64,000 nucleotides of DNA from positions 1 to 64,000 of the forward strand of contig JABWCF010000011.1 of NCBI GenBank assembly GCA_013359255.1, given 5' to 3'. The notes below the pieces were generated by a model. It was not told the DNA's origin, ran no database searches, and saw only the letters and a program-made list of their open reading frames with translations. Source of the stretch: Flavobacteriales bacterium (GTDB taxonomy: Bacteria; Bacteroidota; Bacteroidia; Flavobacteriales_E; Vicingaceae). Each line of letters begins with the position of its first letter. The stretch's first letter is position 1. A program made the translations under genes and the position numbers. Positions 5,328-27,096 of this stretch are shown here, one piece after another.

Positions 5328-7730
5328 TTATTTTGGCTTTACGGTATTTTTTATACGGTAATATGCAGCCGTTATACTTCCTAAAATCATAAGTAAACAT
5401 CCTATCCATAGTATATTTATCCAAGGAAAAATAATAGCCTGCATAATAATAAACTCGCTTTCTTTGGTTTCGCTTTCTGTTACCAAAAGTTCTATACTCC
5501 CATTATTCACATTTATATTTTGGAAGTAGAGGGTAAGTCCTAGCACGGGAATTGAATCCGGAATATTTTTTAGTACGTTACCGCTTATTACCATAACCGG
5601 ATTGCAGTAGTACAGAGAATTGGAAAGTGTTTTTACCTGCAGGTGAGCCCCCACAGCAATGTCGTTCTCTGTTAAATTATATTTTTTTTTGTCAATAGAT
5701 TTGTCTAAATACTCCAATACAAGCATACTATTGTTGGTAAAAACGGTATCGCCTACCCCAATATTCAACTGTTTTTGTTTTGGATTTTCTTGCTCATTTG
5801 CCTCCTCTAAATCGGCATAAGAAACATACGTAAAAATGTCTTTATACAAAAAGTGACGAGTATCGGGTTCGGGCACATTTCCCATTAATTTATTCGTTTG
5901 TATGCGTGGGCGTAAGTTAAATTGGTGTACAAATTCGTTTTTATTTTTTTTAAAATAGGCTACGTTATAGTAGATATTTATGCCTTCTTTTTCTTGTCCG
6001 GTGTACGAAACATAATAATCTCCCATAGGAAGGGTATCGCCACGCACCAACATAATATTTTCGGCATTTGCATCGGTTCCGGGTTCGCTTCGCATTTGAA
6101 TATTTACGCCCGAAGAGTTTACCGATATAATTTGTTTTTTTCCGGTAGAAATTAGAGCCCCTAGCATAATTAAAGCAAAGCCCACATGTGCAATAGAGGC
6201 TCCGGCTTTTTTAGCTTTACCACTTACCACTCGTAACCAAAAATCGGCATTAGAAAGTGTGGCAAATAGCGAGGCAAACAATAACAAGATATGCAACACA
6301 TATTTTATTTGCAAAAAATAAACAATGAGTATAGTAGCTGTAAGTGATGCGAAAAAACTGATTGCTATTTTTTTGAAAAACCATTTCCATTCGGTGCTGT
6401 GGTGTTTAAAAAACTGAGAACCTGCTAATATGAAACAAACAATAATGGCAAAAGGAATTTGCCACGCATTGTAATGCATAACTGCATTGTTGGGTGGTGC
6501 CATTTCTGTATTAAAAATTTTATTAAATACAGGAATAGAAGTGGTGGCTATAATTTGTAAGGCTGATAAAAATAACACAAGAGAGCCAATGAACATCCAA
6601 AATTCTCTGGAAGAAATTTTTTCTTCTTCCGTTTGCTTTGGAAATAATTTCCTTCGGTAGAATAAAATGAATACCGATAAAAAAACAAATACACTCATAA
6701 AAACAATAAGCTGACCCGGCAAGCCATCGGCAAAAGAATGTACGGAGGTTTCGCCCAACACTCCGCTGCGGGTTAGGTACGTAGAATATAATACCAATAA
6801 AAAAGAAAGAAACACAAACAAAAACATAAGCAAAATACTTTGAGGCTTTTTTTTGTTGACCAACATTAAATGTGCAGCACCTACCATTATAAGCCAAGGC
6901 ACAAGCGAGGCATTTTCTACAGGATCCCATGCCCAAAAACCACCAAAACTAAGTGCTTCGTAAGCCCATGCCCCACCCATTAATATGCCTGCTCCCAAAA
7001 AAGCAACACCTATAAACATCCATGGTAAAGAGGGTAAAATCCATTCGGTTATTTTCTTTTTCCATAAGCCAGCTATAGCAAAGGCAAAAGGAATAAGAGT
7101 TGAAGCAAAACCTAAAAATAAAACCGGAGGATGAATAGTCATCCAATAGTTCTGTAACAAGGGGTTTAAACCTCGTCCATCGAGTGATGCTAAATAATTT
7201 GGATTATTTACAAAAGGGAGGTTTACCATATCGGGGTGGTCTCTCAGAAGCAAAAAAGGACTGCTGCCAATTTTGATACCAAATACATATACTCCCAATA
7301 ACATTGAAATAAGAAAAACTTGTACTAATGCCACTACCGACATAACCGGAGCCTGCCATTTACCTGAAGTAAACAGCACAATGATTCCGAGTACTATGTG
7401 CCAAAATGCCCAAAGCAAAAAACTACCTTCCTGCCCCTCCCAAAAACACGATAAAATGTACCGGAAAGGCAATGCATTAGATGAATGTTGCCAAACATAA
7501 TGGTACTCGTACATATGTGCAAGTAGCATATAAAATAAGGTGGCGATAATTCCTAGTACAGAAAATGAATGAAGCAAAAATGAGTAAACGCCCAAATTCT
7601 TCCAGCCATCATTATTTGTATTGCTGGCTTTAAAAAAAGATAAGGCCGAAAAAAAAGCAGCGACAAATGCAAGTGCTACAAATGTATTCCCTATAAATCC
7701 AGGTAAAAGATGCTCTCCCACATACTCCAT
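5328..7730 (-). CDS. ccmF: CcmF/CcsA-type cytochrome c heme lyase subunit
   Basis: 800-residue polytopic membrane protein. The WWD-type heme-handling motif reads GGFWAWDPVENASLVPW, with conserved His in the adjacent loops (NYWMTIHPPVLFLG). About 14-15 hydrophobic segments occur, with a soluble periplasmic region at roughly residues 540-740 and a last helix near the C-terminus. The protein attaches heme to apocytochrome c in the periplasm. It is the last gene of ccmBCDEF, 14 bases after ccmE. Bacteroidota annotations often call it CcsA, but length and layout fit CcmF. Confidence 0.92.
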   Translation of the reverse strand: MEYVGEHLLPGFIGNTFVALAFVAAFFSALSFFKASNTNNDGWKNLGVYSFLLHSFSVLGIIATLFYMLLAHMYEYHYVWQHSSNALPFRYILSCFWEGQEGSFLLWAFWHIVLGIIVLFTSGKWQAPVMSVVALVQVFLISMLLGVYVFGIKIGSSPFLLLRDHPDMVNLPFVNNPNYLASLDGRGLNPLLQNYWMTIHPPVLFLGFASTLIPFAFAIAGLWKKKITEWILPSLPWMFIGVAFLGAGILMGGAWAYEALSFGGFWAWDPVENASLVPWLIMVGAAHLMLVNKKKPQSILLMFLFVFLSFLLVLYSTYLTRSGVLGETSVHSFADGLPGQLIVFMSVFVFLSVFILFYRRKLFPKQTEEEKISSREFWMFIGSLVLFLSALQIIATTSIPVFNKIFNTEMAPPNNAVMHYNAWQIPFAIIVCFILAGSQFFKHHSTEWKWFFKKIAISFFASLTATILIVYFLQIKYVLHILLLFASLFATLSNADFWLRVVSGKAKKAGASIAHVGFALIMLGALISTGKKQIISVNSSGVNIQMRSEPGTDANAENIMLVRGDTLPMGDYYVSYTGQEKEGINIYYNVAYFKKNKNEFVHQFNLRPRIQTNKLMGNVPEPDTRHFLYKDIFTYVSYADLEEANEQENPKQKQLNIGVGDTVFTNNSMLVLEYLDKSIDKKKYNLTENDIAVGAHLQVKTLSNSLYYCNPVMVISGNVLKNIPDSIPVLGLTLYFQNINVNNGSIELLVTESETKESEFIIMQAIIFPWINILWIGCLLMILGSITAAYYRIKNTVKPK

Positions 7731-7744
7731 TTCGTAATGCTAAA

Positions 7745-8143
7745 TTAAGGTTCGGTAGAAACTTCTACCATTTCGCCATTATTATATTTTGAAGGGCATT
7801 TCATTAATATTTTCTCGGCATAAAAATATTCGTCTTGCATCTGTCCGGTTAATACAATCTGTTCCGAACGTTCAAAATCCTGTGGTTTCGCTCCCTTGTA
7901 GTGCACCTTACATTCTTTTCCGTTTTTGTCTACCATATAAAAGGTAAAAAGATTGGCATTTTCCTGAGGGTTGTACACTAATTCTTTTTCTTTATTTAAA
8001 ACTCCTACCACTTGAAATGTTTTTCCTTTGGCCTGTTCTGCCTTAGAAAAATCAACAAAAGTGCTTGAATCGGCAAGAGTAGTAATAATAACTCCCACAG
8101 CAACAGCTATAATGGCAATGGCTATGATGTGCGTTTTTTTCAT
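7745..8143 (-). CDS. ccmE: Cytochrome c maturation heme chaperone CcmE, CxxxY variant
   Basis: 132 residues: an N-terminal membrane anchor (residues 5-23) then an OB-fold periplasmic domain. CcmE receives heme from CcmC and passes it to CcmF through a covalent bond, usually to His in an HxxxY motif. Here the corresponding C-terminal motif reads KCPSKY, placing Cys116 four residues before Tyr120, so this is the CxxxY form. The start overlaps the end of the CcmD-like gene by four bases. Confidence 0.92.
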   Translation of the reverse strand: MKKTHIIAIAIIAVAVGVIITTLADSSTFVDFSKAEQAKGKTFQVVGVLNKEKELVYNPQENANLFTFYMVDKNGKECKVHYKGAKPQDFERSEQIVLTGQMQDEYFYAEKILMKCPSKYNNGEMVEVSTEP

Positions 8144-8352
8144 TTCTGCTTTTGATTAGATTTTTCGATTTTATCAATTTTTCTGTCTAAAAAAAACAGA
8201 TAAGCAAAAATGCCTGCTAACACAATTCCTGCCACAGTGATTACTACATATATTTTTCCTTCTTTTCGGAAAACATCCGCCATTTCGGGTTCTTGTGCTT
8301 TTAATACAAGCGATGTTAAAAGCAAAAAACAAAGGGTTAATATTTTACTCAT
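8140..8352 (-). CDS. ccmD: CcmD family protein
   Basis: 70 residues with a signal-like N-terminus (LCFLLLTSLVLKAQ), a second membrane helix (VVITVAGIVLAGIFAYLFFL) and a basic tail (DRKIDKIEKSNQKQK). CcmD is a small membrane protein that helps release heme-loaded CcmE from the CcmABC complex. Identification rests on size, single-helix-plus-basic-tail shape and position between ccmC and ccmE. Confidence 0.82.
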   Translation of the reverse strand: MSKILTLCFLLLTSLVLKAQEPEMADVFRKEGKIYVVITVAGIVLAGIFAYLFFLDRKIDKIEKSNQKQK

Positions 8353-21241: not shown

Positions 21242-21268
21242 AATAAATTGTTTTCTGTGAAATTACAA

Positions 21269-21317
21269 TACGCTAAAAAAAAGAGCCGCAAATATGCGGC
21301 TCTTTTTTTTAGCGTAT
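21269..21317. terminator. Strong hairpin terminator after the SprB-repeat adhesin
   Basis: GAGCCGC (21283-21289) and GCGGCTC (21296-21302) form the core stem, flanked by eight A and eight T, with a further TACGCT/AGCGTA pairing outside. It is symmetrical and overlaps the adhesin stop codon at 21309-21311. Confidence 0.85.
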
Positions 21318-24300
21318 TACTGACACATGTCCATCATAATGGTGTTCTTTCCCTCTGTAGTCTTTAAGTTTTACAAGATATACGTAAGTGCCAACTGGCA
21401 CCATGTTGCCTTTCACTGTTCCGTCCCAACCCGCATCTAAGGAGTTTGTCTCAAAAATTACATGTCCCCATCTATCAAAAACATACATACTATATTCCAA
21501 AATCTCTTCTCCTTTGCCATTAAACACTTCGTTTTTACCATCTCCATCGGGCGTAAAAGCGTTGGGGATATAAAATGTAAACTCTGGTAAAATGGTTACT
21601 TCTTTTGTTATTTCACTCTGACAATTCCATTTGTTATTTACATAAAGTGTAACTGCATAAACCCCTTTTTCTTTGTACAAATGAGTTGGGTTTTCAATGT
21701 TTGATGTTTCGTTATCTCCAAAACTCCATAACCATGTATCAGCTTCTTCCGAAAGATTTTTGAAACGTATGCTTCCTTCAAATACTGAAACTTCATCGGG
21801 TGTAGCTTCAAAATTAGCAACAGACTGTGGAAATACGGTAGCAACAAACTGAGTCGTATCAGACATTTTACACCCATAGGGTGTGGTAACAGTAAGTATA
21901 ACGGTATATGTGCCACTATTTTTATATGCGTAAATAGGCGATGCTTGCGAAGAGGAATTTCCATCTCCAAAATTCCATTGATATACGTATCCATTAGGAT
22001 TATTTCCCGAGTTATAACATACAAAACTAGCTTCTCCACAACCTTTTGATGATTGAGGTGAAATATCTACCATTGGTAATGGATTTACGGTTATATAAAC
22101 AGAATCAGCTTTCGTATTTCCGCATACATCGGTTACCAGTACCTTGTAGTAGGTGCTTTGTTGAGGCTTAATAATGTGCGGCCCTGCTCCCGTTCCTAGT
22201 CCATTATTCCACTGGTACTGATAATTTCCGATACCATCTAACACATTGGCCCAAACCGATACCTCTTCGCCCTCACAAACCGGAGTGGTTCCGTTTACCA
22301 ATAGCGTAATGCTATCTATGTTATTTACAGTAATAGTAATACTGACAATTGTTCCGGGACAATTATTTCCATCGTAGGCTTGCACAGAATAAGTAGTATT
22401 TTGTGTAGGAGAAACCGTTTTAACTCCTCCTACTCCTAAGCCATTACTCCACACAAACACATAGTTTCCTACACCACCTGTAGCATTGGCAATTAAATCC
22501 GTAGTGTGCTGAGGACAAATAACCGGATTGGTTGTTTGCAGAGAGGTTGTAATAACTGCCGGTTGGTTTATAAGTACAGAGGTTTGCCCTGTGCAACCGT
22601 TCGCGTCAATAACAGAGGCAAAATAATTTCCGGCTTGTAAGTTTACAGCAGTAGCTGTAGTTTGAATAGGAACTGTACTCCAAGAATAGGTGTAAGGGGC
22701 AACTCCACCGGCACCGGCTACCGTAGCACTTCCGTTATTTTGACCAAAGCAAGTTATATGTATTGTATTGGTTATATTAGCAAACACGGGAGCTGGCTGA
22801 TTTATTATTATATTGTAATTTAAAACACAACCATTTGCATCTGTAATAGTTGCCGTATAGTTTCCTGCAAAAGCATTATTTAGAGTGTATCCGTATTGAG
22901 CAGGAATGGTGTTCCAAACAACAGTATAAGGGCCTACACCACCCGAAGCACCTATGGTTACAGAACCATCGTTTAATCCATTACAACTTACTCCTTTGTA
23001 AAAGTTAATGTTGGCCAAAATAGGCATAGGCTCTGTTACGGTAACAGAAGCGGTATTTGTACAACCTGTCATATCCACAACCGTAACGGTATAGGTTCCT
23101 GCAGCCAAGCCAAAGGCTGTATCGGTATACTGAATAGGGTTTGTGTTCCACATAAAACTGTATGGAGCATTTCCTCCGAAGGGTATGGCAATAGCCATTC
23201 CATTAGAACCACCATTACAACTAACGGCCAAAGAACTTGTGCTTATACTAACAGGAGAAGGATTCATCACTGAGGCATTGTATTGCACCATGCACCCATT
23301 TGCATCGGTAACAGTTACTGTATATGTACCTGCCGATAAACCGGTAGCTGTTTGAGTGGTTTGCACCGGCACGGTATTCCAAAGGTAATTATATGGAGCT
23401 GTCCCTCCGGTGGGGTAAGCTGTTGCCATGCCATTATTTCCTCCGAAACACTGCACGTTTATAACCGAAAGAGAAGCTAATAAAGGTGCTGGTTGATTTA
23501 TTATTATAGTATCGTATTTAACACAACCCTGATTGGTTGTAACCTGAACCCAGTAAGTACCTGCTGTAAGTCCGTTGATGCCTTGGGTTATCATTCCATT
23601 AGACCATAAATAGGTATAAGGAGGTTGACCACCGTTTACATTGGCAGTGGCGGAACCGTTTGCTCCTCCAAAACAAGAAACATTAGTAGAGGTTATATTG
23701 ATATTTCCTGGCGCACCATTATTGTTTATTGTAAAGTTTTGCGTAATGGTACAACCTGAGTTATCGGTAACACTTACCCAATGATTTCCGGGTGGTAAAC
23801 CGTTATGCTGATTTCCGTTTCCTCCATTTTGCGACCATGTATAGGTAAATGGCGCCTGCCCCCCATTTACAGTAACTGTAGCGGTTCCGTTCGATGCTCC
23901 ACAATTAGAATTGGTGGTAGCTATACTTAAGGTAAATCCATTTACAGTAATACAAAAAGAGTATGTTTGCAAACCGTTATAAGGACAAGCATCGTCTTTA
24001 ACTGTAACAGTGAAGCAGTGAGGAATATTGCTAATATCATTGATTCCGGGTGTCCACGAAAATGTAGCAATGTTATTATTTACAACAAAACTTGCACCGG
24101 GTATTCCATTGTTCCATGTAAGAGTTATGTTTTGTCCGGGGTCTGGATCAAAACCTTGTATGGTAAATGTTAGATTCGCTTGGGCACATACAGAAGTATT
24201 AAAAACATTGGTGCCATTAATACCGGTAATATATGGTAATGTATTGCTGCAATTAATCGTTTTAATTTGCATATCACGCATTACGCTTCCCTTAAAAATT

Positions 24301-25091
24301 CCATCTTGGTATTCCTCAACCAACACCGCCACTACAGTAACTTGCATCATAGAAGGTGTCATGCAGATATCGCCATTTTGGGAATTAAATGTTACCGGAG
24401 GGTTTGATGCTAAAGGTTGTTGAGGAGTGTATGGCACCACGTAAGTAACCGTAGTATTAGCCCCTGTTTTAGGAGCAATGAGAGAATATGCCAAAGAGTC
24501 GTTATCTACATCATTTGCTCCATGGTTGTAGCAAAATGTTTGAAGTACACAAGGAAAAGATACCGGAGGATTTGAAAAAGTAGGAGAATTATTGCATGCA
24601 AAATCGAGGTTGTTTAATTTGGCTTCTACATAAATATTTTCTGTGCCCGGATTTTGAATAGTATTAATTACATTGTTTCTGCAGCAAAGCGTAAAACTAA
24701 ATACCCAATCGTTGCATTGAGCGGGTAAAGTTATTGTGGTAGTATACACCCACTCCTGCACACCCGGGTACATACCGCCCGAACAATTGGTTTGAATTTG
24801 ATTGCAGGTTTGGGTAATATCAACACCCGTTCCCGGAACTTTTGTAAGTGTATAATTTATATTTTGGTTGCACGAAGCAGATTGTGCATTTACTGTAACC
24901 GTATTGGGAGCGTTAACCCCACCGCAATCTCGGTAAAAAGATACATTTATTTTATATTGGTTGCCACCTAAACACTGGTAGGTTAAATCGGCCCCCTGAG
25001 CATGTGAAGCATAGGCTTCATTATGTTTTATAATAAAAGATAAGATGATAAAAATCCATATTGCTCTTAAAGTTTGTAGTTGTGTTTTCAT
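21309..25091 (-). CDS. SprB-repeat surface adhesin with gliding-motility C-terminal (T9SS type B) domain
   Basis: 1260 residues. A signal peptide ends near EAYASH. Residues about 28-280 form a Cys-rich N-terminal domain (GADLTYQC ... FYRDCGG ... FTLCCRN ... HGANDVDNDSLAYSL) shared with the adhesin at 55775. A cadherin-like domain follows, then six SprB repeats (roughly residues 390-850, pattern CFGGxNGxAxxxxxGGxxPYTYxW ... GTYxVxVTDxxGC). Two Ig-like segments and two PKD domains (WNFGDGNSSSQASPIYAY, WLWSFGDNETSNIENPTHLY) come next. It ends in the type B sorting domain (FYIPNAFTPDGDGKNEVFNG ... DRWGHVIFET ... GTYVYLVKL). It is likely exported by T9SS and carried on the surface. The start has a strong GAGG-containing leader. 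Confidence 0.92.
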   Translation of the reverse strand: MKTQLQTLRAIWIFIILSFIIKHNEAYASHAQGADLTYQCLGGNQYKINVSFYRDCGGVNAPNTVTVNAQSASCNQNINYTLTKVPGTGVDITQTCNQIQTNCSGGMYPGVQEWVYTTTITLPAQCNDWVFSFTLCCRNNVINTIQNPGTENIYVEAKLNNLDFACNNSPTFSNPPVSFPCVLQTFCYNHGANDVDNDSLAYSLIAPKTGANTTVTYVVPYTPQQPLASNPPVTFNSQNGDICMTPSMMQVTVVAVLVEEYQDGIFKGSVMRDMQIKTINCSNTLPYITGINGTNVFNTSVCAQANLTFTIQGFDPDPGQNITLTWNNGIPGASFVVNNNIATFSWTPGINDISNIPHCFTVTVKDDACPYNGLQTYSFCITVNGFTLSIATTNSNCGASNGTATVTVNGGQAPFTYTWSQNGGNGNQHNGLPPGNHWVSVTDNSGCTITQNFTINNNGAPGNINITSTNVSCFGGANGSATANVNGGQPPYTYLWSNGMITQGINGLTAGTYWVQVTTNQGCVKYDTIIINQPAPLLASLSVINVQCFGGNNGMATAYPTGGTAPYNYLWNTVPVQTTQTATGLSAGTYTVTVTDANGCMVQYNASVMNPSPVSISTSSLAVSCNGGSNGMAIAIPFGGNAPYSFMWNTNPIQYTDTAFGLAAGTYTVTVVDMTGCTNTASVTVTEPMPILANINFYKGVSCNGLNDGSVTIGASGGVGPYTVVWNTIPAQYGYTLNNAFAGNYTATITDANGCVLNYNIIINQPAPVFANITNTIHITCFGQNNGSATVAGAGGVAPYTYSWSTVPIQTTATAVNLQAGNYFASVIDANGCTGQTSVLINQPAVITTSLQTTNPVICPQHTTDLIANATGGVGNYVFVWSNGLGVGGVKTVSPTQNTTYSVQAYDGNNCPGTIVSITITVNNIDSITLLVNGTTPVCEGEEVSVWANVLDGIGNYQYQWNNGLGTGAGPHIIKPQQSTYYKVLVTDVCGNTKADSVYITVNPLPMVDISPQSSKGCGEASFVCYNSGNNPNGYVYQWNFGDGNSSSQASPIYAYKNSGTYTVILTVTTPYGCKMSDTTQFVATVFPQSVANFEATPDEVSVFEGSIRFKNLSEEADTWLWSFGDNETSNIENPTHLYKEKGVYAVTLYVNNKWNCQSEITKEVTILPEFTFYIPNAFTPDGDGKNEVFNGKGEEILEYSMYVFDRWGHVIFETNSLDAGWDGTVKGNMVPVGTYVYLVKLKDYRGKEHHYDGHVSVIR

Positions 25092-25094
25092 GGG

Positions 25095-25109
25095 TTACCT
25101 CGCTTTCTT
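25095..25109 (-). promoter_or_regulatory. Strong ribosome binding site and duplicated leader of the SprB-repeat adhesin
   Basis: The minus strand reads AAGAAAGCGAGGTAA three bases before the ATG. The same 15 bases precede the SPOR-like gene at 26030. GAGG-type sites are uncommon in this window. Confidence 0.6.
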
Positions 25110-25127
25110 TTTTATTTATTATTTGTA

Positions 25128-26030
25128 TTATTTTAAGCATAGTAGAATATCGTCTGAATAATTTATAATTTTTACATTTTCAATTCCCATTTCACTTACT
25201 TCTTCTTTTAGAAATTCTGCTTCTGCTTTGCTTGAAAGAGTGCCCAAACAGTAAAATGTTTTTTCTCCCACCTCAATTGATTTTAATCCCCATTTTTTCA
25301 ATCGCAAAAAAACAGATGCGTTGTTATTTGGCACAAAATCCTTGTATTCTCCCAATACCAAGGTGTATACCGTACCCATTGGAGCAGAAGAGCTCGAGAC
25401 TATCTTTTTAATTTCTGCCTTACCCTCTCTTTCTGTAAAAGAAATTATGTTTCTGTTGAAGCTTCGCTTCTTGCTAACATAATTTTTATTGGCAATTTCC
25501 CGTTCCAATAAATTTAGTTGAGAAATCGTAATGCGTTTTCCATTTATGTAAGCAGTTATAAACGCATCGGGTATTCCTTTTTTAATTATTTCTGCTCTAG
25601 TATTTTCTGCCTCTTGAAACGAAGTGTATTTTCCATAAGAATACCTAACCAAACCATGGCTTAACTTTTCTTCGTTCAAATTCTCGAATTGCTTTATTTT
25701 TGGGGACAAAGCAGAAGACTTATAAATACCTACTTGTACTGCGTAAAAAATTTCTTTTGTTTTTTCAATAGGCCATAAATATAAAGGAGGTTTTACCTCA
25801 AAACGAACCATCGAATCTGCCATTTCCATAGCAGAAATAGTATCGTTCTCTACCGATGTTGCAATGAAGATAGGTGAAGATATGCTATTATCCGTTTTTC
25901 CGGGGTAAGTTTTAATGATTTTACGATAAGTAAGCCCTTCTGATAAGGTATTTATAGAAGTATTTACAATTACTGTGGTTACAGAAAAAGTAAAAATGGT
26001 TGCGATAGAGTACAGTAGATGTGTTTTCAT
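25128..26030 (-). CDS. SPOR-domain-like exported protein
   Basis: 300 residues with an N-terminal signal or anchor segment (MKTHLLYSIATIFTFSVTTVIV). The middle (about residues 92-165) has a SPOR-like pattern: FYAVQVGIYKSSALSPK ... GLVRYSYGKYTSFQEAENT ... AFITAYINGKRI. A second, weaker one (about 217-299) reads TVYTLVLGEYKDFVP ... KTFYCLGTLSSKAEAE. SPOR domains bind denuded peptidoglycan. It lies 36 bases upstream of the adhesin on the same strand, and both share a nearly identical 34-base start region, so co-regulation is likely. The role is inferred. Confidence 0.72.
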   Translation of the reverse strand: MKTHLLYSIATIFTFSVTTVIVNTSINTLSEGLTYRKIIKTYPGKTDNSISSPIFIATSVENDTISAMEMADSMVRFEVKPPLYLWPIEKTKEIFYAVQVGIYKSSALSPKIKQFENLNEEKLSHGLVRYSYGKYTSFQEAENTRAEIIKKGIPDAFITAYINGKRITISQLNLLEREIANKNYVSKKRSFNRNIISFTEREGKAEIKKIVSSSSAPMGTVYTLVLGEYKDFVPNNNASVFLRLKKWGLKSIEVGEKTFYCLGTLSSKAEAEFLKEEVSEMGIENVKIINYSDDILLCLK

Positions 26031-26033
26031 AGT

Positions 26034-26048
26034 TTACCTCGCTTTCTT
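26034..26048 (-). promoter_or_regulatory. Strong ribosome binding site and duplicated leader of the SPOR-like gene
   Basis: Identical to 25095-25109 on the minus strand (AAGAAAGCGAGGTAA), again three bases before the ATG. The first codons (ATGAAAACACA) also match. Confidence 0.6.
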
Positions 26049-26185
26049 ATAGTTTATATTAAAAAGAACATTTTGCTTATAAAATACGATATTATTAATT
26101 TTTTGTTTCGTTTTAAAAATTTAAAATAGATTTTTATTCTGTTTTATATGTTTTTACAAATCTTTTATTCTGTTTATTATTTAAA

Positions 26186-26262: not shown

Positions 26263-27096
26263 ATGAATAAAACCGTTTATAAAGTACTTGTACCCACCGA
26301 TTTTTCTAAAGTGGCCGATTGTGCAATGGAGCATGCAGCCAAGGTGGCAAATATATTCTCCGGTGAAATCCATTTGCTGCACGTAGTGGGAAAACAAAGC
26401 GAGGTAGAAAACGCCATAGAAAAACTAGATAAAATTGCAGAAAACACAAGCGCTAAGTATAAAGTTCCGGTTCTATCTATAGTGCGGATTGGAAATATTT
26501 TTGAAGATATTGGAGATGTAGCAGCCGAAATAAAAGCTCGCTTAATTGTAATGGGAACTCACGGAGTTAAGGGCATTCAGCATTTGGTAGGGAGTTATGC
26601 GTTAAAAGTAATTACACATTCAAAAGTACCTTTTATTGTAGTACAAGAACGAGGTGTAAGAGAAGGTTATAAAAATATTGTATTACCGGTAGATAACTCT
26701 CAGGAAACAAAACAAAAATTAAGTTTAACTGCTAATATGGCTAAACACTTTGGAGCCAAGGTACACATCTTTGCTCCCAAAGAAACAGATGAGTTTAGAA
26801 TAACTAAACTAAACCGAGATTTAACCTTTGCTAAAAATTATTTAGAAGAAAAAGAAATACCTTTTGACATACAAATAGCCGAAGATAAAAAAGGGTTTGT
26901 AAAGCAATTAATTCATTACTCAGCAAGAATAGACGCAGATTTATTAGCAGCCGTAAACACCCATGACAGCGTTGCTTTGCCCGACTTTTTGGTTGGTGGA
27001 GAAGAACAAGAGCTCATTGCCAACGATGCCGAGATCCCTGTTATGATTATGAATCCTACTCAGGAATTTATTGCCAGCAGTGTTCTGTTTACATAA
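26263..27096 (+). CDS. Universal stress protein, tandem UspA domains
   Basis: 277 residues made of two Usp domains (about 5-140 and 150-277). The first begins YKVLVPTDFSKVADCAMEHA and carries the ATP-binding-type loop MGTHGVKGIQHLVGSYALKV followed by SKVPFIVVQ. The second begins KNIVLPVDNSQETKQ and has a degenerate nucleotide loop. Such cytoplasmic proteins aid survival under starvation or redox stress. A bidirectional terminator separates it from the carbonic anhydrase gene. Confidence 0.9.
   Translation: MNKTVYKVLVPTDFSKVADCAMEHAAKVANIFSGEIHLLHVVGKQSEVENAIEKLDKIAENTSAKYKVPVLSIVRIGNIFEDIGDVAAEIKARLIVMGTHGVKGIQHLVGSYALKVITHSKVPFIVVQERGVREGYKNIVLPVDNSQETKQKLSLTANMAKHFGAKVHIFAPKETDEFRITKLNRDLTFAKNYLEEKEIPFDIQIAEDKKGFVKQLIHYSARIDADLLAAVNTHDSVALPDFLVGGEEQELIANDAEIPVMIMNPTQEFIASSVLFT

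Follow-up and report, generated by a model that had tools for sequence, protein, structure and literature searches.

A 34-base start block with a leader complementary to the 16S rRNA tail is duplicated before a SPOR-domain gene and an SprB-repeat adhesin gene in a Flavobacteriales genome

The window, that is the whole stretch of 64,000 nucleotides that was analysed (Flavobacteriales bacterium, family Vicingaceae; contig JABWCF010000011.1), carries two genes in tandem on the minus strand, with 36 bases between them. The first one, at 25128..26030, encodes a SPOR-domain protein of 300 aa (Pfam SPOR, 23.9 bits against a cut-off of 21). The second one, at 21309..25091, encodes an adhesin of 1260 aa with PKD domains, in which the SprB repeats (PF13573, 184.7 bits) and a T9SS type B sorting domain (TIGR04131, 61.6 bits) both score above the curated cut-offs. 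The gene labels of the original prediction, a SPOR gene and the SprB adhesin, thus hold as far as the domains are concerned, but orthology of the adhesin to SprB could not be demonstrated, and the protein is best described as an SprB-repeat protein. Like the gliding adhesin SprB of F. johnsoniae, it combines SprB repeats with a type B T9SS sorting domain; unlike SprB, it is 1260 aa long, contains PKD domains and stands behind a SPOR gene. The type IX secretion machine probably exports it. For the SPOR protein, no PDB relative was found by sequence at E 0.1, and the AlphaFold model (mean pLDDT 37.9, 2-sequence alignment) was too poor to confirm a SPOR fold. Among the matches listed for this protein, full-length ones came only from its own genus, those from outside the genus covered at most about 209 of the 300 residues, and many of these outside matches belong to frames at least 1,700 aa long.

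At the other end of the adhesin gene, a perfect 24-nt inverted repeat with a 4-nt loop (21267-21318) extends across the stop codon (21309-21311) and is perhaps a terminator. Directly downstream lies a gene of an outer-membrane beta-barrel family (PF13568; 20474-21241, minus strand), which could encode a partner of the adhesin; among the matches listed for it, there was none to PorP/SprF.

The starts of the two genes fall within two copies of one 34-nt block, copy 1 at 26015..26048 (SPOR gene) and copy 2 at 25076..25109 (adhesin gene), both on the minus strand. Comparison of the copies confirmed the predicted identity at 31 of 34 positions. Each copy is made of the leader AAGAAAGCGAGGTAA, the same in both, a spacer (ACT / CCC), then ATGAAAACACA, one difference, and CTAC; the differences are therefore 0/15 in the leader, 2/3 in the spacer and 1 in the first 16 coding bases. 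When the starts of 359 predicted genes, taken from a 464-kb sample of the genome, were aligned on the start codon, this pair ranked 1st of 64,261 pairs, the next-best pairs in the same sample reaching 26/34. In the whole genome of 2,923,153 bases, the 15-mer leader with up to one mismatch has two sites, which are these blocks, and the 24-position pattern from the leader to ATGAAAACA with up to three mismatches has the same two sites only. The genome search that had been proposed as a check thus found the motif in two places and not scattered, which rules out a genome-wide repeat family. A third copy of the motif at 26393 (plus strand, 2 mismatches) is situated inside a universal stress protein gene and was treated as chance.

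The likeness does not extend past the block. The flanks resembled each other no more than by chance, with 307/500 shuffles upstream and 406/500 downstream scoring at least as high as the real sequences, which rules out a gene duplication or a signal peptide shared beyond the block. The original prediction had also considered the copying of an expression and signal cassette: the initiation block does look copied, but the signal part is unsupported because the likeness stops at the block and the remaining parts of the signal peptides show no similarity.

The 16S rRNA of the organism ends in ...GGAACACCUCCUUUCUAGAG and its 3' tail is ACACCUCCUUUCU, with the position of the mature 3' end assumed from F. 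johnsoniae. The reverse complement of ACCUCCUUUCU in this tail is AGAAAGGAGGU, and the leader reads AGAAAG-C-GAGGT. The SPOR gene is thus preceded by an extended Shine-Dalgarno (SD) sequence, AGAAAGCGAGGT, at 26036..26047 with a bulged C at 26041, and the adhesin gene by the same 12 bases at 25097..25108 with the bulged C at 25102 (both minus strand). In both copies, RNAduplex gave 11 pairs (6 + 5) around the single bulged C, with an energy of -13.9 kcal/mol, and the last base of the SD lies 5 nt from the ATG. The strong SD that had been remarked upon in a lineage seldom using such sites is thereby confirmed, and even lengthened to 11 paired leader bases. Without the bulged C the leader would score -17.7 kcal/mol in RNAduplex; the bulge thus costs about 4 kcal/mol compared with the unbulged helix, a point which counts against the interpretation that we favour below.

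A pairing of -13.9 kcal/mol was reached by 10 of 100,000 leaders simulated with a first-order Markov model trained on the genome's leaders and by 21 of 71,800 mononucleotide-shuffled leaders, both sets having been built with the two block leaders included. The two block leaders were the strongest of 374 gene starts sampled in 464 kb, and none of 374 mock regions taken 53-75 bases upstream reached -12. The pattern GAAAGN{0,1}GAGG followed by ATG within 3-12 bases gave 7 matches in the genome, only two of which, those of the blocks, stand before real ORF starts; 4 of the other 5 are inside longer frames and 1 opens a single-codon frame. Two observations count on the other side. Among random 22-mers of the 464-kb sample, coding sequence included, 18/20,000 reach -13.9, so that a few equally strong sites are expected genome-wide by position alone. 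Also, comparable sites precede an hflX-like gene (-13.7, at a long spacing) and an ATPase gene (-12.0) of the sample, both named by eye.

A study on F. johnsoniae (PMC9976891) provides the background for such sites. There, bS21, bS18 and bS6 keep the anti-SD sequestered, and rpsU carries an extended SD of less than -13 kcal/mol, which is preferred by ribosomes without bS21 and constitutes an autoregulation. According to the same study, Flavobacteriales typically possess one strong SD, that of rpsU, and a screen found SD-dependent control in this order confined to rpsU; a strong rpsU SD is given for about 80% of Flavobacteriales in the literature. A ribosome-profiling study of F. johnsoniae has also been published (PMC6847099). 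The energy of our two blocks, -13.9 kcal/mol each, lies below the -13 kcal/mol of the rpsU type (RNAduplex here, free_scan for those authors), whereas the 9-13 consecutive base pairs of that type are replaced by 6 + 5 pairs with a bulged C, and the position before rpsU by positions before the SPOR and adhesin genes. The blocks share with the rpsU site of F. johnsoniae a long complementarity to the 16S tail beyond CCUCC, in a genome without a general SD excess and with Tyr54 in bS21. They differ from it in their duplication and their bulge, in the genes that they precede, in the absence of an SD from rpsU of the same genome, and in a function that is predicted only.

Indeed, rpsU of this genome (positions 1003-1197 of locus L336, contig G000:C20) has no SD (+1.5 kcal/mol). 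None of 18 rpsU leaders from its family was stronger than -9.1, and 2 of 12 from other families reached -17.7 and -20.6; this survey had loci for 30 of 37 matches, and for G045, G014 and G037 the start used in scoring was a TTG, one codon downstream of the likely ATG. The organism nevertheless combines the canonical CCUCC in its 16S tail with Tyr54 in bS21 (hand count on the protein sequence), the two marks of a Bacteroidia ribosome with a sequestered anti-SD, and such sequestration may be presumed here.

A general SD habit of the genome is unsupported, as the SD patterns had fewer matches than their reversed controls: 43 vs 53 for AAAGN{0,1}GAGG..ATG, and 46 vs 100 for AAGGAGG at 3-9 bases before ATG. 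In the 374-gene sample, the strong tail of the distribution is fuller at first ATGs than in the mock regions (13 vs 6 at -9, 4 vs 0 at -12), which suggests that a minority of genes may use SDs. When all 46 AAGGAGG matches were filtered, 7 were accepted as gene starts, and their genes were assigned with NCBIfam and Pfam to L6 (rplF), bS18 (rpsR), an S30AE hibernation factor, an HU/IHF-family protein, an Hsp20-family protein, an ECF-type sigma factor and gldK. The SDs before rpsR and rplF recall those before rpsR (bS18) and ribosomal genes in some Bacteroidia (PMC8710568 and PMC9976891); unlike there, SDs are also found here before gldK, the hibernation factor, the HU/IHF-family, Hsp20-family and ECF sigma genes and the SPOR/adhesin operon. 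An SD-bearing hibernation factor was also detected in G004, which belongs to another genus. The AAGGAGG matches of four other genomes were fetched in part (18 in one set; 42 in another, with 6 gene starts by the filter), and the list of SD genes is incomplete, the pattern search catching only the SD shapes named.

The gldK gene of the genome (identified by TIGR03525; positions 7002-8288 of locus L327, contig G000:C14) has an SD of -13.1. An SD of -12 or stronger was present in 17 of 21 gldK leaders read in the family, the weaker ones being those of G005 (g5), G006, G010 and G020. The 17 leaders come from just 5 of the 8 genera read (2/2 in g1, 6/6 in g4, 3/4 in g5, 5/5 in g13, 1/1 in g14), so that the 21 leaders do not represent independent cases. 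The gldK of G007, from a further genus, scored -11.1. In other families, 0/8 leaders reached -12 and two reached -10. The survey comprised 30 GldK loci of 60 genomes, 29 of them with a start (G043 had none); with G007 counted in, 22 of the 37 family genomes were covered.

In 9 of the 12 gldKLMN operons compared (loci L327 and L328-L339), gldK is preceded by an SD that reaches -11. Of the 11 operons showing gldN, 5 have an SD before this gene that reaches -12 (genera g4, g5 and g13). No SD was detected before gldL or gldM in any of the 12 operons, the strongest value being -6.3, and gldN of the genome itself has none (-2.3). NCBIfam confirmed gldL, gldM and gldN in this genome and in G004, as well as gldN in four other SD-bearing genomes; the remaining gldL, gldM and gldN were named by eye from operon order and N-termini. 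All relatives were scored with the 16S tail of the window organism, from which that of G004 differs; with its own 16S tail, gldK and gldN of G004 both give -15.1. PorK and PorN, the Porphyromonas counterparts of GldK and GldN, build a ring with 32-36 subunits of each, and the motor contains five PorL and two PorM (PMC8754138). Among the open-access papers listed in literature searches on SDs and type IX secretion or gliding, no title or abstract opening described SDs before T9SS genes.

The comparison of the leaders in relatives, also proposed as a check, gave a divided answer: the block is unchanged in the single congener compared, but absent before the adhesin in sister genera. The congener G001 (contig CAJPFH010000025.1) shows 0 changes in the two 34-nt blocks against 69 substitutions in 1401 bases compared around them. 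This is weak evidence, as 68 invariant bases at 95% identity in one congener would occur by chance in about 3% of cases if sites were independent. Orthologues of the adhesin were found in 9 genomes of sister genera (62-68% identity over the first 200 aa), and none of the 8 with a readable start carries an SD, G014 being left out for want of an in-frame start; this counts against the interpretation favoured below. All of these 8 orthologues have the element GTTCTTT 28-34 nt before the adhesin ATG. In our genome, the 130 nt upstream of the adhesin ATG contain no GTTCTTT, and the element occurs instead at 26063..26069 (minus strand), 39 nt before the SPOR ATG. The SPOR gene was thus probably inserted behind the old adhesin leader. 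On this leader comparison, the simplest account would be that it landed between this leader and the adhesin gene, and that the initiation block then came to stand on both sides. The block may have been copied by circle integration via the shared block, by template switching, or by tandem duplication with later loss. In an adhesin orthologue from another family, that of G054, the region before the start scores -12.5 (10 pairs around a single bulged base) and has no exact GTTCTTT; this pairing, scored with the 16S tail of the window organism, may be due to chance. Also, GAAAGGAGGTGCTTATG has four copies in G001 (C5, C31, C64 and C91), some of them close to contig ends, and a single one in G024 (C61), and perhaps marks a mobile element.

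We favour, with a probability of about 0.6, the interpretation that the block is a translation initiation region built on an extended SD complementary to nearly all of the free 3' tail of 16S rRNA, apart from one bulged C, that it was kept in duplicate after the SPOR insertion, and that ribosomes with an exposed anti-SD favour it together with a small set of SD genes including gldK. The SPOR gene would have inserted between the ancestral adhesin leader, marked by GTTCTTT, and the adhesin; with the initiation block ending up on both sides of it, each gene of the two-gene operon would keep its own strong start site. If bS21, bS18 and bS6 normally hide the anti-SD here as they do in F. johnsoniae, such SD sites would respond to ribosomes with an exposed anti-SD, which should favour SD-bearing mRNAs. 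The SPOR/adhesin operon would then be translated together with gldK, for the type IX secretion ring, and with the few other SD genes. The common translational control of the two genes that had been suggested in the original prediction is plausible, and gains support because gldK also has a strong SD.

The main competitor, to which we give a distinctly smaller share, supposes that the SD does no more than boost translation from polycistronic mRNAs for exported proteins that are abundant (ring parts, adhesin and SPOR protein), with no regulation by the state of the ribosome. The operons agree with this in that gldK and gldN, whose counterparts PorK and PorN are present at 32-36 copies per ring, have SDs in several genera, whereas gldL and gldM, whose counterparts number five (PorL) and two (PorM) per motor, lack SDs in 12/12 operons. 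However, gldN of the genome itself lacks an SD. Moreover, in wild-type F. johnsoniae a strong SD gave no higher output, but slightly lowered that of a reporter, for which the authors blame other changes in the leader (PMC9976891); this last result speaks against mere strength and counts against our preferred interpretation as well. Somewhat less probable again is that the two copies are a neutral remnant of a local duplication or insertion, the SD complementarity being functionless under a sequestered anti-SD. The confinement of the block to one genus, with one congener compared, would suit such a remnant, as would the adhesin orthologues of sister genera that do without an SD. Yet the identity is concentrated in the leader (15/15) while spacer and flanks have diverged, roughly one model leader in 10,000 shows such complementarity, and gldK indicates that SDs are retained in this family.

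Two further ideas appear improbable. A regulator protein could bind the identical 15-mers that precede two genes of one operon, on DNA or RNA and without the ribosome; we consider this very unlikely, since the leader fits the 16S tail at SD distance, the second site lies inside the operon, and the RNA around the starts gave no hairpin signal or special fold (z -0.13 and 1.14). Slightly less credible still is a switch in which the blocks recombine, the 939-bp SPOR segment is excised and the leader is rejoined to the adhesin. The direct repeats do flank exactly one gene, and the deletion would restore the order of leader and adhesin seen in sister genera, but the repeats are short and both genomes compared carry the undeleted form.

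The preferred interpretation, an initiation region answering to ribosomes with an exposed anti-SD, can be extended to the whole family, although we regard this extension as speculative and rather doubtful. In the family, extended SDs would have moved to genes of surface secretion, and the GldK/GldN ring, joined in the genus studied by the SPOR protein and the adhesin, would be made selectively by ribosomes that are short of bS21 or bS18 and have their anti-SD exposed. Type IX secretion and adhesion would thus be gated by the assembly state of the ribosome or by stress; in the SPOR/adhesin operon, the second site would have arisen as a duplicate of the first. If true, an rpsU without the strong SD combined with SDs on gldK, on some gldN and on the adhesin operon would mean that SD-dependent control can be re-targeted, beyond the rpsU-only view expressed in PMC9976891. 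Such a family would also offer natural reporters for the purpose of the sequestered anti-SD. Finally, the SD pattern of gldK and gldN versus gldL and gldM suggests a way in which a T9SS operon could set the stoichiometry of ring to motor.

Strong SDs were also encountered elsewhere. An ORF of 17 codons with an SD of -13.1 lies on the minus strand of locus L297, at about position 754 of the reverse complement (G000:C20:90744), just upstream of a lipoprotein-like ORF, and possibly encodes a leader peptide. In a survey that read one locus in each of 29 genomes, out of 48 with a match, perfect extended SDs were observed in other genera of the family before a ClpS-like gene and another gene, both named by eye (L184 of G011 and L205 of G006).
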